Source of the DNA: an uncultured Lachnospiraceae bacterium
Lineage (GTDB): Bacteria; Bacillota; Clostridia; Lachnospirales; Lachnospiraceae
DNA length: 57,508 bases
Assembly (NCBI GenBank): GCA_947626435.1
Contig: CANQSB010000020.1
Coordinates: 1-57,508, forward strand
Direction: 5' to 3'
The stretch's first letter is position 1, and every line of letters starts with the position of its first letter. Position numbers and translations under genes: made by a program. Positions 3,906-46,781 of this stretch are shown one piece after another. The notes beneath the pieces were generated by a model that was given only the letters and a program-made list of their open reading frames with translations, was not told the origin of the DNA and did no database searches.

Positions 3906-5078
3906 ATGAGGGCGGTATGCAGGCGGCTTACAGCACTGCTTATGACTGCGGCTGTGCTCTTATGCGCTGTTGCTGGCGCTTTTCCATTCACCGTCCATGC
4001 GGAAACCACACTGGAACGTCTGCAGAAGGCAAAGGAAGAAAAGGAAAAGACAAAGGACGCTAAGGAAGACACAGAGGAACACAGGGATTCGTTGAAAATA
4101 GCGCAGGATTCACTGCTTGGGAAGCTCAGCAGCCTTAATGACGAGCTTTCCAGTGTTAGCACGAATCTTGAACTGATAGAAGCGGATATATCTGCCAAGG
4201 AGCAGGAAATTACAAATACGCAGTCGGAGCTTGAGCAGGCAGTCCTTAAAGAGCAGACGCAGTATGCCAATATGAAGCTCAGGGTAAAAATGATGTATGA
4301 GCGCAGCCTGAATGGGGGCAATCTTGACATATTGTTGTCCGCAAAGAGCTTTTCAGATTTTTTGAATAGAAGCGAATATATAGCACAGATAAACAAGTAC
4401 GACAAAAGAATGCTTGCTGAATATGAGGAGAGCCGGAAGGCAGTTGAAGATACAAAGGCGCGTCTTGAAACAGAGCTTACAGAGCTTAATTCGCTGAAAG
4501 AGGATGCCGCGGCGGAGCAGAGCAGGGTGGCAGGTCTCGTAAAGCAGACGTCTGACAGTGTTGCTGATTACAAGTCGCAGATAGCGGACGCGGAGGCGAC
4601 GATTGACACTCTTGAAGACATGATTGACGCGCAGGAGGCAAGCATCGCGGCGCTTCAAAAGCAATATGAGGAGGAGCTTGCGCTTTCGCGACTTGCGGCA
4701 CAATCGGCGTGGCGTGACATATCAAGTGTAACCTTTGAGGAGGGCGACCGCAAGCTCCTTGCCAATCTGATTTACTGTGAGGCAGGAGCGGAGCCGTATA
4801 CAGGGCAGGTGGCAGTAGGCGCGGTGGTTGTCAATAGAGTGCTGAGTTCCCGTTATCCAAATACTATGGTGGGTGTTATTTACCAAAACAAACAGTTTTC
4901 GCCGGTGGCAAGCGGACGACTTGCGCTTGCGCTTGCAAATGACTCCGCAACGGCAAATTGCTATAAGGCGGCGGACGAGGCTATGAGCGGAGTGACAAAT
5001 GTAGGGCAGTGCGTATATTTTAGGACACCAATACCGGGGCTCGAGGGCATAAGGATAGGCGGGCACATTTTTTATTAG
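3906..5078 (+). CDS. Secreted cell wall hydrolase: coiled coil plus SleB/CwlJ domain
   Basis: Envelope protein with an N-terminal signal peptide (hydrophobic ~5-30, AGAFPFTVHAET cleavage region). Two long coiled-coil stretches (~30-115 and ~150-260) resemble the PcsB/EnvC-like N-terminal regulator of peptidoglycan hydrolases. The C-terminal hydrolase_2 domain (~275-390) matches SleB/CwlJ, with LANLIYCEAGAEPYTGQVAVGAVVVNR. SleB-type domains act as lytic transglycosylases or amidases on spore cortex or wall peptidoglycan. The coiled coil argues for a regulated cell-separation or general wall enzyme rather than a germination enzyme, which is inference. It sits between upp and the phospho-signalling genes. 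Confidence 0.85.
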   Translation: MRAVCRRLTALLMTAAVLLCAVAGAFPFTVHAETTLERLQKAKEEKEKTKDAKEDTEEHRDSLKIAQDSLLGKLSSLNDELSSVSTNLELIEADISAKEQEITNTQSELEQAVLKEQTQYANMKLRVKMMYERSLNGGNLDILLSAKSFSDFLNRSEYIAQINKYDKRMLAEYEESRKAVEDTKARLETELTELNSLKEDAAAEQSRVAGLVKQTSDSVADYKSQIADAEATIDTLEDMIDAQEASIAALQKQYEEELALSRLAAQSAWRDISSVTFEEGDRKLLANLIYCEAGAEPYTGQVAVGAVVVNRVLSSRYPNTMVGVIYQNKQFSPVASGRLALALANDSATANCYKAADEAMSGVTNVGQCVYFRTPIPGLEGIRIGGHIFY

Positions 5079-5096
5079 GAAGGGATTTGTGGTGCA

Positions 5097-6350
5097 ATGA
5101 GCTATAAAATAGGAATTGTAGGGGATGCTTCCTCATATATACAGCGGCTTGTCAAATTTTTAGAAGGCAGTCACAGCGATAGCATTGAGGCTGTATGTGT
5201 CGGTGTAGGACTTGAAGGCGTTGACTTTAAGAGCGAGAAATATGATGCGGTTTTGATAAGCGATGATTTAAAAATTGATGACAAGAAAATTCCATCAGGC
5301 ATAAAAAAAGTATACCTTGCGGCAAAACCTTCCAGTGCTAAGCAGCCGCAAATACTTAAATATCAGCGCCTTGAAGAAATCTATAAACAGATAATAGAAA
5401 TATGCGACGCAAAAGCCGTTGAGGACTCGCAGCAGCCGAGCGAGGCTTGCGGAGAGGAAAAGCATTTCCAATGTCGCTTTGACGGACTTGAATTTTCAGA
5501 GAAACGTATACGGGAGAACGTTTACAGCGTGCTTGATTATTCAGACGGTGGGCTGGGCGAGCCTGATGATTTGGAGACAGGAATGCTTGAAAATAACCAT
5601 ATACAGGGCATTGCAGGCTTTTCAAAAAAAGAAGGAAAGCTTTACTATGATGTAACAGGTAAGCAACCGCTTACATATTTTGTGGCACAGAATAACAGCA
5701 GGGATGGCAGGGATAAGCTTGTCAGAATTTTTTCAAATATTTTTAATGCTATGAGCGGACTCGAGGAATATATGCTTGACTGGCAGAAGCTTGTTATGCG
5801 TCCCGATGAGATTTTTGTGAATGAGGACACGCTTGATGTGGCGCTCTTATATTATCCGTTTGATATGGCAGAGAATAATGAGCGTGGTATATATGAGCAG
5901 CTTCAGGAGATAATTTCCGTATGCGAAAGGCTTATGGAGGCTATTGATGAGGCGCAGGACGATGAAGGCACAGAGGTGTTTGATGAGCTTCAGGAGGCGG
6001 CAAAGGATAGTTCTCGCGCTAAAAAGCAGACAGTGGACTTTGAGGAGGTCAAAAAGGTAGCATATCTTATCAGAAAGCGAACAAAAGAGAAAATCATGAT
6101 AAACCGAGGCATCTTTAAGCTGGGAAAGGACGAGAATTATGTGGATTACTGTATAAAGGATAACCCTACTGTCAGCAGAAACCACGCGGATATCGTCAAA
6201 AGGTCAGACGGCTTTTATGCTGTAGATAAAGGTTCACGCAACCATACCTTTGTAAATGGAAAAAAACTTGAAGAGCAGCAGTATGTAAAGCTTGAAAAAG
6301 GCGATTTGCTGCAGGTTGCTGATGAGGTTTTTGAATTTAATATAAAATAG
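5097..6350 (+). CDS. FHA-domain protein with receiver-like N terminus
   Basis: The C-terminal ~80 residues form a forkhead-associated domain that reads phosphothreonine: FKLGKDENYVDYCIKDN, then TVSRNHADI, then KGSRNHTFVNGKKL. Residues 1-90 resemble a CheY/TadZ-like alpha/beta receiver fold (IGIVGDASSYIQRLVKFL, YDAVLISDD) but lack the full acidic pocket. The middle (~100-330) is rich in acidic helices with no family I recognise. It is directly followed by a PP2C phosphatase and a Ser/Thr kinase, so it is likely a substrate or reader in that cascade. The N-terminal assignment is tentative. Confidence 0.8.
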   Translation: MSYKIGIVGDASSYIQRLVKFLEGSHSDSIEAVCVGVGLEGVDFKSEKYDAVLISDDLKIDDKKIPSGIKKVYLAAKPSSAKQPQILKYQRLEEIYKQIIEICDAKAVEDSQQPSEACGEEKHFQCRFDGLEFSEKRIRENVYSVLDYSDGGLGEPDDLETGMLENNHIQGIAGFSKKEGKLYYDVTGKQPLTYFVAQNNSRDGRDKLVRIFSNIFNAMSGLEEYMLDWQKLVMRPDEIFVNEDTLDVALLYYPFDMAENNERGIYEQLQEIISVCERLMEAIDEAQDDEGTEVFDELQEAAKDSSRAKKQTVDFEEVKKVAYLIRKRTKEKIMINRGIFKLGKDENYVDYCIKDNPTVSRNHADIVKRSDGFYAVDKGSRNHTFVNGKKLEEQQYVKLEKGDLLQVADEVFEFNIK

Positions 6351-6380: not shown

Positions 6381-7190
6381 ATGGAATTACATTATACAGT
6401 AGCGGCTCAGACGGACGCAGGCACGACCAAAAGCGTCAATCAGGACAGCCTTACCGTAAAAGTGGCAAATACGCCGAATGGGGAGGCTGCGTTTTTGGTA
6501 TTGTGCGATGGCATGGGCGGGCTGGAGCAGGGCGAAGTGGCAAGCACAGCGGCAGTGCGGGCATTTGAACAGTGGTTTTTGAAGGATTTTTCTGCTCTTG
6601 CCGCATCTGGGATTGACGCGCAGACGCTTGAGGAAATCTGGTCGGGCATCCTGCAGGGCTGTAATGAACGAATATATGATTACAGCAAGGAACATCGTAC
6701 TTCTATGGGTACGACGCTCACTGCGCTTTTACTTTTTGACGGTTCTTATTATATATCGCATGTGGGCGACAGCAGGGCATACAGGCTAGGGGACGAGATT
6801 TCGCAGCTTACAAGTGACCATACATATACGGCAAGGGAAGTAGCGCTTGGACATATGACGCTCGCGCAGGCAAAGAATGATTCCCGCAGGAATGTGCTTT
6901 TGCAGTGTATAGGCATGGGAAAACCGATAAGTCCTGAGTTTGTCAGCGGAAAGATTGAGGTGGGGGACAGTTTTGTGCTCTGTTCAGACGGCTTCCGCCA
7001 TGAACTGACGGACGAGGAAATATATGAATATTGCCAAAACGAGCCTGCGCAGCTTGAATGGAGTGCGCAGAAGCGTCAGGAAAATTCACGTGCTATGAAC
7101 AGACTCTTGAGGGAGCTTATAAGTATGAACAAGCAGCGCGGCGAGAAGGACAATATATCGGTGGCGTTTGTAAAAATAATGGACAGATAG
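6381..7190 (+). CDS. PP2C-family Ser/Thr protein phosphatase
   Basis: Metal-dependent phosphatase expected to reverse the adjacent kinase. Metal-binding motifs are clear: Asp22 in VNQDSL, Asp43-Gly44 in LCDGMGG, SHVGDSRAYRL, FVLCSDGFRHEL and GEKDNISVAFVK. At 269 aa it is a minimal cytoplasmic PP2C like Stp/PrpC, with no membrane segment. It lies 30 nt after the FHA gene and 16 nt before the kinase gene, so the three are probably one transcript. Confidence 0.93.
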   Translation: MELHYTVAAQTDAGTTKSVNQDSLTVKVANTPNGEAAFLVLCDGMGGLEQGEVASTAAVRAFEQWFLKDFSALAASGIDAQTLEEIWSGILQGCNERIYDYSKEHRTSMGTTLTALLLFDGSYYISHVGDSRAYRLGDEISQLTSDHTYTAREVALGHMTLAQAKNDSRRNVLLQCIGMGKPISPEFVSGKIEVGDSFVLCSDGFRHELTDEEIYEYCQNEPAQLEWSAQKRQENSRAMNRLLRELISMNKQRGEKDNISVAFVKIMDR

Positions 7191-43701: not shown

Positions 43702-43745
43702 TTTTATAATGTGATATAATAATATGGAATAAAACATAAATAAAA

Positions 43746-43773
43746 ATGCAACACTTTAAATAAAATGTTGCAT
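43746..43773. repeat. Left recombination site of the invertible segment
   Basis: A 28-bp near-palindrome with ATGCAAC and GTTGCAT arms and core AAAT. It matches the right site at 44716-44743 in 26 of 28 positions when inverted, including the core. Confidence 0.85.
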
Positions 43774-43803
43774 TTTCCAGCGTCAATTATCTCTACACCC
43801 TAT

Positions 43804-43830
43804 ATATCGGTTTATAATCGGAATACTTTA
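43804..43830 (-). promoter_or_regulatory. Flagellar sigma (sigma-D/sigma-28) promoter inside the invertible segment
   Basis: Minus-strand TAAA-N15-ACCGATAT, against the sigma-D consensus TAAA-N15-GCCGATAT. It points left, away from csrA and flagellin, and would start RNA ~25 bases inside the left site. The rest of the 43774-44047 gap is A+T-rich with no gene. Confidence 0.75.
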
Positions 43831-44047
43831 CCCCTTATTTGAAAAATTTTTAATTTTATTTGAGAAAATATATTGTCTGATGTGATTGAGATTGTCCTAA
43901 AATGCTGTGTACATCTTAAAAAAGGGCATAGAAATCCCTTATGGAAGCAGACTTTCTATAAAGAAGCGTAATAATATAAGCGCGAGAGCATTTCGCGCAC
44001 ATAAAATTATAAATTAATACGAGCTATATTATCTGGAAATTATATCG

Positions 44048-44638
44048 TCAGAGCGCGACTTTCATAAACACCTTGTCGCGCTCATCCTGGTCTATTCCAA
44101 GATAGCGCTTTGTAATCGCAAATGACGAATGATTGTATATATTCATAATCAAAATCGAGGAAATTTTGCAGAGCGCGGCAAAATATCCAAAGGTTTTCCG
44201 CAGTGAATGGCATCCGATGTTTCCCTCTATTTTGAGTATTTGAGCGGCTTCTTTTATAATCCGGTATGCCTGTGAACGGCTAAGCGGCTTGTTCACGCTC
44301 TTTCTTCCCAGAAAAATGTAATGTTCCGCGCTGATTTTGACAGTTTCGAGCTTATAATGTTTCATCAGCTTTTCCAGTGCGCACAGTGCGCCCTTATTCA
44401 AAAATATCATGTTTTTCTTGTGTGTTTTCTTTTCCGTAAGCTCAATGTGTTTCTTAAATCGGCGTCTGTCAAAATCGTAAACATCTCCCCACTTTAAATT
44501 AAGAATATCGCTTATGCGCAGCGCGGTATTTATTCCCACGCAGAATAAGGCGTAATTGCGTATCTCATTTCTTCCCAAAAAGTATTTTTTCATCGCTTCT
44601 ATTTTCTTCCTGTTTTTGATAGGTGACATTGTTCCCAT
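44048..44638 (-). CDS. FimB/FimE-type tyrosine recombinase (invertase)
   Basis: A 196-aa tyrosine recombinase consisting almost only of the catalytic domain, the size of FimB/FimE. The catalytic residues are all present: Arg41 in TALRISD, a Lys in TEKKTHKKN, His144 and Arg147 in CHSLRKTFG, His170 in YNHSSF and Tyr179 in KRYLGI. Recombinases of this size typically flip short DNA segments that carry promoters. It lies inside a segment bounded by two inverted 28-bp sites and next to a flagellar promoter. GGGAGG precedes the ATG. Target choice is inferred from position. Confidence 0.93.
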   Translation of the reverse strand: MGTMSPIKNRKKIEAMKKYFLGRNEIRNYALFCVGINTALRISDILNLKWGDVYDFDRRRFKKHIELTEKKTHKKNMIFLNKGALCALEKLMKHYKLETVKISAEHYIFLGRKSVNKPLSRSQAYRIIKEAAQILKIEGNIGCHSLRKTFGYFAALCKISSILIMNIYNHSSFAITKRYLGIDQDERDKVFMKVAL

Positions 44639-44715
44639 AATATTTTCCTCCCTAAACGCTTCCTTGCGTCAGTGCACTTTAATTTTAGCACAGATTTGCC
44701 CGTCATACATATCAA

Positions 44716-44743
44716 ATGCAACACTTTATTTAAAATGTTGCAT
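44716..44743. repeat. Right recombination site of the invertible segment
   Basis: A 28-bp near-palindrome with the same arms as the left site but core ATTT, the reverse complement of AAAT. It lies 85 bases upstream of csrA. Confidence 0.85.
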
Positions 44744-44827
44744 TTGATAAAGACCCAGGATAAATCAAAGAGGATAGGCTTTCACCAGGATGAATAAAGG
44801 CTTTGAAGAAAACAAGGAGGTTTTTAT

Positions 44828-45043
44828 ATGCTGATGCTTACAGTACCGAAAGAAGAATATTTATTGATAGGAAATAATATCAAGATTACCTTTCTTGGCG
44901 GGAATGACAGGCAACTTAAGGTGATGATAGACGCTCCGAAAGATATAAATGTCGCGAGAGGCAGAGCTATCAAAAAGCGTGCGATAAAAAGAGCGGCTAA
45001 TAAGGCGGCAGAAACAGCAGAAGCAGAGGCACAGGAAATATAA
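44828..45043 (+). CDS. csrA: CsrA-type RNA-binding translational regulator
   Basis: A 71-aa protein. The first ~50 residues match CsrA: MLMLTVPKEEYLLIGNNIKITFLG and KVMIDAPKDINVARG, including the conserved Arg of the RNA-binding face. An alanine/lysine-rich tail (~22 residues) is longer than usual. CsrA blocks translation by binding GGA hairpins near ribosome sites, and its best-known Gram-positive target is flagellin mRNA. The flagellin gene is next, 220 nt downstream, with a GGA hairpin in between. No fliW, the usual antagonist, is in the window. AAGGAGG precedes the ATG. Confidence 0.9.
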   Translation: MLMLTVPKEEYLLIGNNIKITFLGGNDRQLKVMIDAPKDINVARGRAIKKRAIKRAANKAAETAEAEAQEI

Positions 45044-45142: not shown

Positions 45143-45163
45143 GTGGAAAACGGAATTTTCCAC
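45143..45163 (+). promoter_or_regulatory. Predicted CsrA-binding hairpin in the flagellin leader
   Basis: A perfect 8-bp stem (gtggaaaa / ttttccac) presents the loop CGGAA, with GGA exposed as in high-affinity CsrA sites. A second GGA lies in the flagellin ribosome site (45254-45256). Confidence 0.7.
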
Positions 45164-45265
45164 GGCAAAGCCAAAGCGCGGATTTGTGGATGTAAGATTT
45201 ACAAAAGTGAAATTTGCAGACGCAAAGACAAATAAGCGCGGCAGGCAAAACAAGGAGGTAAGATT

Positions 45266-46781
45266 ATGGTAGTACAGCACAATTTACAGGCAATGAACTC
45301 TAACAGAATGTTAGGAATTACACAGGGCTCTTTGTCAAAGGCAACAGAGAAGCTTTCTTCAGGCTACAAGATTAACCGTGCGGCAGATAATGCGGCAGGT
45401 CTTGCTATATCTGAGAAGATCTGAGAAGATGAGAAAGCAGATTAGAGGACTTACACAAGCATTTGCAAATGCTGAGGACGGTATCAGCGTAGTACAGACG
45501 GCAGAAGGCGCTCTTACGGAAGTTCATGATATGCTTCAGAGAATGAATGAGCTTGCAGTACAGTCAGCAAACAGCCCGAACGCAGAAAATGACCGCTCAT
45601 ATATTCAGGCAGAGATTGACCAGCTTACACAGGAAATTGACCGTGTAGCCGAGACAACTAAGTTCAATGAGACATATCTTTTGAAGGGCGACAATTCAGT
45701 TGAGAAGACATACAGCTATGCTTATAAGATGGGTTCAGACCTTAGCGCGACAGCCAGCTTTTCAAAGACAGCAGACGCAAACGGTGTTACTGTATCAGTA
45801 AGCTTCTCTGCGATGGGTACAGCGAAATCTCCTTCAGTAGCGGATCAGGATGCTTTGGCAAAAGCGCTCAAGAACCAAGGTCTTACGATTACGACATCAA
45901 CCATTAAGGTTATTGATACTACTACTGGTACTACTGTCACAAAGGATGTAGTAAAGGCATCTGTACAGTTCAACGGCAGCGATGCAAAGTCTAACTTCTC
46001 AATAGTTGGCTCCGGTACAGTAAGCGCCAGCGGTGTAGTATCATTCACTGTAATTAACTCATATGGCAAAGTTGTCGGCAATATCAATGTAAAGTTAGAT
46101 GATATTAAGGCCGGACTTACCAGCAATATTACAGCTACTACTGTAACCGCTTCAGGCAGCAGCCTCGAGGCATTTTCATTCTATGATAAGGATGGCAACA
46201 AGATAGCGGCTAATGGTCTGAAAGATTATTTTACTTCAATGGATGTAGGTCAAGGCGCTTCAGCAACCATTTCAACATCAGGCAGGGCTGATTCTAAGAA
46301 GGTATATGACGCTCTTGGCAACGAAATCGCACTTGACCAGACAAAGGTTAAGGCTGCAAAGGATCAGACCGGCGCATTGGCAATGAGATTCCATGTAGGT
46401 GCTGACGGTACAGACAACAACAAGATTTCTATCAACATTCAGGCGTTGACGGCTAAGGGGCTTGGTATCAACGGTTTAAGGATTGACGGCGATGATGATA
46501 TCAGGGCTACAAATGCTATCTCCGTAATCAGCGAGGCAATCAAGATTGTATCTACACAGCGTTCAGCGCTCGGTGCAGTTCAGAACCGCTTAGAGCATAC
46601 AATCAACAACCTGGATAACATCGTAGAGAATACGACATCTGCAGAGTCATCAATTCGTGATACAGATATGGCTGATGAGATGGTTAAATACTCTAACAAC
46701 AATATCCTTTCACAGGCAGGTCAGTCAATGCTTGCACAGGCTAACCAGTCTAACCAGGGCGTACTTTCATTACTCGGCTAA
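45266..46781 (+). pseudogene. Flagellin, disrupted by a 10-bp tandem duplication
   Basis: The true start is the ATG after AAGGAGG: VVQHNLQAMNSNRMLG through LSSGYKINRAADNAAGLAISEK, the classic flagellin D0/D1 N terminus. A tandem duplication of ctgagaagat (45411-45430) shifts the frame and gives TGA at 45422, truncating the protein at 52 residues. Removing one copy restores SEKMRKQIRGLTQAFANAEDG and a full 501-aa flagellin ending ILSQAGQSMLAQANQSNQGVLSLLG. The rest is intact, with a variable central region (~135-395). It may be a slip-strand off state, a recent mutation or a sequence error. Confidence 0.92.
45411..45430 (+). repeat. 10-bp tandem duplication in flagellin
   Basis: Two perfect adjacent copies of ctgagaagat, in a region coding for the highly conserved SEKMRKQ of flagellins. 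One copy is the expected state. Confidence 0.95.

Follow-up and report, generated by a model that had tools for sequence, protein, structure and literature searches.

Does a ~1.0-kb segment lying just before a csrA gene and a flagellin gene switch these genes on and off by inverting itself? The question is raised by a contig of an uncultured Lachnospiraceae bacterium (GCA_947626435.1, contig CANQSB010000020.1, 57,508 nucleotides; this whole stretch is referred to as the window), for which a first-pass annotation, made from the letters and their open reading frames, proposed a flagellin ON/OFF switch that is OFF as sequenced. That proposal is supported by the position of the promoter in 31 of 32 related cassettes, by the covariation of the recombination cores in 32/32 and by two copies in the ON orientation. 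On this comparative sequence evidence, the segment 43744-44745 is very probably a promoter cassette that inverts itself and thereby phase-varies the csrA-flagellin operon on its right.

Anatomy of the window segment

The segment (43744-44745, ~1.0 kb) consists of two 32-bp near-palindromes that enclose 938 bp. The csrA-distal recombination site lies at 43744-43775 with the core AAAT at 43758-43761, the reverse complement of the core ATTT at 44728-44731 in the csrA-proximal site (44714-44745). The near-palindromes and their reverse-complementary 4-bp cores were thus described correctly in the first-pass annotation and extend from 28 to 32 bp. Its count of 26/28 matching positions in inverted register fares less well as evidence. 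The similarity stands, with 30/32 positions matching and identical cores in this register, but the direct register also matches at 30/32 positions, its mismatches being the cores, so that the overall count does not discriminate by itself and the core does.

Between the sites, the minus strand encodes a 196-aa tyrosine recombinase composed of the catalytic domain only (P0001, 44048-44638), as the annotation had stated. The protein matches Pfam Phage_integrase (PF00589) with E 1.1e-22 and 81.1 bits against a gathering score of 27.1, its catalytic residues R41, H144, R147, H170 and Y179 are invariant in 21 aligned sequences and its profile matches XerA 5hxy (E 1.5e-14). By domain score and the R...HxxR...H...Y signature it belongs to the tyrosine recombinase family and is predicted to be active. 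The seven curated NCBIfam tyrosine recombinase families listed, XerC and XerD among them, all scored below cut-off, the best being XerA (55.1 against 220). The enzyme is also not a member of the invertases PRK09870 and PRK09871, which are of the FimB/FimE type and for which it reached 38.2 and 37.6 bits against 222 and 221. The window scan recognized no promoter for the recombinase gene.

A sigma-D promoter (TAAA-N15-ACCGATAT, 43804-43830, minus strand) is situated 28 bp inside the 32-bp distal site and points outward over this left site. Described earlier as near-perfect, it agrees with TAAA-N15-RCCGATAT at every position (0 mismatches), and nowhere else in the window does either strand carry a perfect match. 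When the cassette interior was shuffled 200 times, with spacers of 14-16 allowed, a perfect match arose in one shuffle. Between the right site and flagellin we found no sigma-D promoter, in agreement with the annotation. The best match in this stretch has 3 mismatches, which 130 of 200 shuffles equaled, 45 surpassed and 25 failed to reach. A fixed promoter before the window flagellin was accordingly rejected, none having been found.

The promoter was also said to face a terminator. The first terminator-like structure in its path is the left site itself: in the terminator scan, 43742-43777 on the minus strand forms a terminator-like hairpin with a T-run in the direction in which the promoter points when OFF. 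A further terminator-like hairpin, recognized by consensus match only, lies between the recombinase stop and the promoter (43980-43998, minus strand). The scan of the window returned 3 terminator-like sites against 1.5 expected, an excess that is weak evidence alone.

Promoter and terminator-like sites in related cassettes

Across 32 cassettes of the genus, the interior contains a sigma-D-type promoter of the form TAAA-N15/16-NCCGATAT, perfect in 31 and with one mismatch in 1. It lies 16-31 bp inside the csrA-distal site in 31/32 cassettes (OFF) and inside the csrA-proximal site in 1/32 (ON). The possibility of a promoter at both cassette ends was rejected, as 0/32 carry one at the other end. 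Each of the 32 encloses a recombinase gene whose frame is open; one cassette outside this set (L245) contains only a remnant of the gene.

The two sites differ consistently on their outer sides. Over 10 bases counted from the last three of the site, the outward T content averages 7.28 at the distal and 2.31 at the proximal site, and the distal value is higher in 32/32 cassettes. The hairpin read outward has a mean stability of -14.45 kcal/mol at the distal versus -9.57 kcal/mol at the proximal site, the distal one being more stable in 30/32 and less stable in 1; these 32 cassettes are related and do not represent 32 independent events. The copies in genome G223, from another family, show the same contrast by eye. 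With its T-richness and its stable predicted hairpin, the distal site should stop transcription that starts from the OFF promoter. The recombination site thereby seems to double as the OFF-state terminator, and the outer arm of the proximal site seems relaxed, which would let ON transcription pass. That the distal site doubles as a terminator-like hairpin, predicted in 32/32, is a new point.

Paired cores change together

In all 32 site pairs of the genus the two cores are reverse complements, and in none (0/32) do they match in direct register. The pairs comprise 21 different cores, none of them palindromic, and random re-pairing gives 1.8/32 matches; here, too, the related cassettes are not independent samples. 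The count skipped L083, L101, L106 and L021, and the second site of L101 also matches. On the recombinase tree, which is poorly resolved with 9/29 inner branches firm, at least 24 core changes are required. Agreement between paired sites is 32/32 over the eight positions from -4.5 to +2.5 round the dyad, remains at 30 to 32 of 32 inward to -13.5 and falls to as low as 7/32 in the outer half-sites. Direct-repeat excision is therefore disfavored, both by the window cores, identical in inverted register, and by the 32/32 versus 0/32 in the genus, and inversion, as originally proposed, is the event that the cores point to.

Two loci illustrate matched change on a small scale: L074 (ACCC) and L075 (ATCC) have nearly the same recombinase and differing cores, each matched at both ends. 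Exchange between unequal cores would generate heteroduplex at both products, with the left core present at both ends of the segment on one chromosome strand and the right core at both ends on the other, and replication would then homogenize each daughter for one core. Because heteroduplex formation and replication would homogenize the cores in this way, we infer that the matched changes are the trace of past inversions.

As judged from the assembled sequence, most copies in the source genome have their own core, which is a further new point. The cores are not strictly private: cassettes on contigs C22 and C38 of the source genome (G000; L031 and L032) share ATCT, and three of four G223 copies share ATAA. 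With their common core, C22 and C38 could recombine together and rearrange the chromosome.

OFF and ON copies

We examined 50 recombinase loci; for 14 of these neither csrA nor flagellin was within reach, and they were left unclassified. Among the 35 classifiable cassettes, 34 are OFF and 1 is ON. The 35 include L021 and L083, counted as OFF although no site pair was found, and leave out L106, which is OFF by recombinase direction but has sites that do not enclose the gene; L018-L020 and L023-L028 stand outside the orientation counts. At L083 (G017:C20), other sequence occupies the position of the distal site (6590-6671) at a contig end, which may reflect a locked cassette or an assembly join.

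The ON copy, L075 (G028:C14), is inverted exactly between the sites relative to the C10 cassette of the source genome (L029, OFF). On the csrA side, L029 2676-5183 and 5283-7409 match L075 10990-8476 and 8463-6345 on the minus strand (88 and 86%), and the cassette at L029 7380-8355 aligns with L075 5390-6374 on the plus strand (84%), the alignment ending within the sites. The junction letters show inner ends exchanged and outer ends kept. Genes beyond flagellin are common to C10 and G028:C14, only ~20 bp match in the distal outer flank and G028 has another copy (C8, L074, OFF) whose flagellin, csrA and cassette align collinearly with those of C10 at 88.5%. Judged by these alignments, C10 and C14 are not a clean ortholog pair, and either C14 or C8 appears as the ortholog according to the part compared.

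Another family supplied a second ON copy (G223:C5, L255, 5090-5942). Its sites match at 28/28 positions in inverted register, and its recombinase and a sigma-D-like promoter (TTAAG...GACGATAT, departing by one or two letters) face csrA-flagellin; the other three G223 copies (L252, L253, L254) face away from these genes. In this second set of classified cassettes (L250-L255), 1/6 is ON; the other five, L250-L254, are OFF-type, with a single site visible in L251. Of the ten wider stretches added, L248, L249, L256 and L257 gave no classification. Inverted sites surround the promoter, and both orientations occur in nature, between species or between copies rather than within one population. The first-pass annotation had suggested searching related genomes for the inverted junctions; these appear at the counterpart C10/G028:C14, but the window locus itself and its syntenic relatives L072 and L080, three species in all, are OFF without exception.

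Six regions with an orphan site add to this picture. Five are OFF-type with a promoter beside the site, seen by scan in L245 and L246 and by eye in L242-L244, csrA not being in view; the sixth, L247, has no promoter beside its site. The contigs of L242 and L243 (G003:C18 and C104) end ~200 bp inside the cassettes, and their near-identical distal flanks are joined to differing cores (GTGT and GTAT).

ON counts of 1/35 and 1/6 are most improbable under free 50:50 switching. Switching is therefore biased, the ON state is selected against or some copies are locked. Majority-OFF populations, host selection or a biased enzyme may each suffice to produce the OFF excess.

A set of probable switch units in the source genome

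In the source genome (3.70 Mb in 98 contigs) the window's recombinase family has six members. They are 67-100% identical to the window's enzyme, all lie inside cassettes with nearly identical site arms and each of the six full cassettes adjoins csrA and flagellin; a seventh recombinase match has only 20% identity. A seventh csrA-flagellin unit, on contig C5, starts at base 1 with a site of core ACAT (G000:C5:1-32, L033), for which no partner was recognized among matches with <=3 mismatches. If both orientations were present in the sample, an assembler would be expected to stop at just this point, because the sequence to the right of the site is common to both and the inner end is not the same in the two. 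In all seven units csrA comes first after the site, and every unit has a flagellin. Judging from the assembly, the genome has about seven such putative switches, the window's among them, and a csrA and a flagellin of its own belong to each.

The genome contains eight CsrA proteins in total, seven beside the switches and one canonical copy beside the sole FliW. The flagellin adjoining FliW and canonical CsrA on C16 has a fixed perfect sigma-D promoter, and FliA, the sigma factor, scores above cut-off. Divergent flagellin-like genes on C9 and C6 have no switch and no sigma-D match with <2 mismatches close upstream. The seven full-length flagellins compared (494-720 aa) are alike at their ends and differ in the middle. 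The genome would combine about seven switchable units with one close flagellin whose sigma-D promoter is fixed.

csrA, flagellin and leader hairpins

To the right of the window segment, 44828-45043 (plus strand) encodes the switch-associated CsrA paralog of 71 aa (PF02599, E 1.1e-15). The flagellin gene that the annotation had placed there is present, its start being corrected to 45266, and has a break in frame that had gone unmentioned (45266-46781, plus strand; the open part is the ORF 45378-46781). This open part is 97% identical to the C10 flagellin over 456 residues. The frame is shifted by a 10-bp tandem duplication at 45409-45428 (ATCTGAGAAG), leading to a TGA at 45422-45424. None of the other flagellin loci compared has the duplication, which is seen only in overlapping copies of the window stretch; an error of assembly, a mutation or a further switch of the slippage type could each explain it.

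The csrA-flagellin leader contains a hairpin with ACGGA in its loop, a CsrA-type site (45143-45163, plus strand), and a second GGA motif that overlaps the flagellin ribosome-binding site (AAAACAAGGAGGT, 45247-45259, plus strand). Hairpins with an A-N-GGA loop and a stem of >=5 occur in 39/40 flagellin leaders, a set that includes tandem flagellins and the fixed C16 flagellin, versus 79/800 mononucleotide-shuffled leaders. The sole failure, a minus-strand leader of L085, looks like a false start, and in L085 and L091 the best stem is >200 bases upstream. Stem letters vary with pairing kept, and a second GGA overlaps the ribosome-binding site in 36/40 leaders. Ten switch-associated CsrAs, most of them compared as trimmed 50-residue sequences, share 26-38% identity with canonical CsrA and retain R44. 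These predicted CsrA-type hairpins in flagellin leaders are another new point. By analogy with FljA, CsrA from one unit might silence the other flagellins.

Distribution of the recombinase

At E 1e-40 the recombinase is found in 18/38 genomes of the genus, where 33/37 matches adjoin csrA or flagellin, and relatives are found in 50/295 sampled genomes of the order. Among 39 order-level and more distant loci, L130, L135 and L140 have csrA-flagellin in OFF-type order. L133 (the same locus as L103), L138, L148 and L022 have ATGTAACA-type sites in inverted register round a ~135-150 bp element, with the recombinase outside. In other genera and families the recombinase family thus resides inside cassettes (L250, L252-L255) or beside small elements, which suggests that the gene moved into the segment, or out of it. 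A phage origin was considered and rejected: the best 80 of 86 relatives from viral contigs are 29-46% identical, and 0/80 have a site pair of >=24/28 in the stretch. On one viral-classed contig, L180 (IMGVR_UViG_2576861008_000001, 4001-5942), a related recombinase stands directly before flagellin, the sole one of the 80 near a flagellin. In Roseburia and Eubacterium, three flagellin genes for which no promoter was found are noted in the account of Neville et al. 2013 (PMC3720852); these might be OFF switches.

Proposed switch and alternative readings

The aligned sequences show the anatomy, the covariation of the cores, a counterpart locus that occurs in either orientation and a further ON copy in another family, and a mechanism can be proposed that fits them. 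The cassette's own tyrosine recombinase would pair the two 32-bp sites, and since the cores are identical only in inverted register, inversion would be allowed and excision would not. In the OFF state, the sigma-D promoter would fire into the terminator-like left site and leave csrA-flagellin with no promoter that we could find. In the ON state, the inverted promoter would stand next to the right site. The outer half of this site lacks a T-run and its hairpin is weaker, so that transcription would continue into csrA and flagellin. CsrA made together with flagellin probably acts on the GGA-loop leader hairpins; in this way it would tune the flagellin of its own unit and might silence those of other units.

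Parts of this evidence would also suit other accounts. Another recombinase might be the main actor on the sites, as with RecV or Mpi, the local gene being incidental: the arms are nearly the same in six cassettes, so that each of the six enzymes could bind every site, and L245 does with only a remnant of the gene. An open recombinase frame inside each of 32 cassettes makes such action in trans unlikely. The switch might instead serve mainly to alter a global post-transcriptional regulator, with flagellin following, as could be argued from csrA leading each of the genome's seven units, next to the site, and from the retained R44. We think this quite unlikely, given that each unit also has a flagellin, that the central parts of these flagellins differ and that the GGA hairpins are located in their leaders.

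It is very unlikely that the cassettes are relics, once inverting and now mostly fixed OFF, the window's included, with an occasional copy still flipping. Relics should have let their cores drift apart, but these stay matched through at least 24 changes, near-identical recombinases go with different matched cores (L074 ACCC, L075 ATCC) and recombinase frames are open and promoters present in all 32 pairs. What speaks for locking is that 34/35 classifiable cassettes are OFF, that the window flagellin is broken in frame, that G017:C20 (L083) has no recognizable distal site and that L245 has only a piece of recombinase. A small mobile element, namely a transposon with inverted ends that moves by excision and integration through its tyrosine recombinase and takes the promoter along as passenger, would account for several dispersed copies per genome, the compact one-gene layout and the recombinase relatives in viral contigs. 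It is scarcely credible for a gene of which 33/37 genus matches adjoin csrA or flagellin, whose cores are inverted (direct 0/32) and whose adjacent copies look like whole-unit duplications (L030, L076).

Returning to the self-inverting promoter cassette, we infer recombinase activity, transcription, termination, CsrA action and population behavior, and a broader picture can be sketched that is somewhat less likely than not. About seven alternative flagellins would be present in the genome, every one governed by a self-inverting switch of its own, most of these with a separate core as an 'address', allowing independent flipping and making recombination between copies rare. Nearly all units would be OFF, with rare ON cells in which the CsrA of the ON unit, an FljA analog, silences the other flagellins, amounting to flagellar antigenic variation in a gut commensal. 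The site would serve as OFF terminator, and the cores would evolve in concert as inversion plus replication copies one core to both ends.

Relation to known switches

In Salmonella, Hin inverts a ~1-kb segment that contains the invertase gene and an outward promoter for the flagellin operon and the regulator gene fljA. Hin is a serine recombinase that acts on 26-bp hix sites with a Fis enhancer, and the system is present in one copy. The window cassette resembles it in its ~1-kb segment, internal recombinase gene, outward promoter and flagellin operon with a post-transcriptional regulator (csrA here, fljA there). It differs in having a tyrosine recombinase, 32-bp sites, mostly copy-specific cores, an internal sigma-D promoter and about seven copies. 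It is a Hin-like design with an unrelated enzyme and, lacking a serine recombinase, not a member of the Hin system. The ~200-aa tyrosine recombinases PRK09871 and PRK09870 are likewise used for inversion, but the fim recombinase genes lie outside their invertible element and here the gene is inside the segment. The small invertible elements (L133, L138, L148, L022) share a related recombinase and ATGTAACA-type inverted site pairs, and differ in their size of ~135-150 bp and the outside position of the recombinase.

As outlined in PMC5386303, the RecV switch of C. difficile is 154 bp long, has 21-bp repeats and lies upstream of the flgB operon; it controls flagella after transcription start, and its recombinase is common to cwpV. 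In both cases a tyrosine recombinase would invert sequence controlling flagella. By that description the window differs in that recombinase and promoter are inside the segment and the flagellin genes themselves would be switched. The same source describes Mpi of Bacteroides fragilis, one enzyme serving 13 or more switches whose sites share a 10-bp core consensus (PMC5386303). Many invertible elements with related sites per genome are common to both; as far as this outline goes, the difference is that here each copy has a recombinase gene and usually its own core. Among the literature matches listed, titles and abstract openings describe no such switch, and a 2019 gut inverton paper may include some of the loci.

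Lachnospiraceae are a main source of the flagellins targeted by antibodies in Crohn's disease. In that disease, antibodies to flagellins of the gut microbiota are raised (PMC11285207). If flagellin is switched gene by gene, the flagellin met by the host would be told by read orientation and not by gene catalogs, and genetically equal cells could display different flagella. The cassettes would form a natural set of compact switches, with core pairs that record past strand exchange.

One locus departs from the common layout. At L086 (G012:C1, 6005-6859) the recombinase start abuts a C-terminal piece of flagellin and csrA was not found, which looks like a deletion or rearrangement through the cassette.
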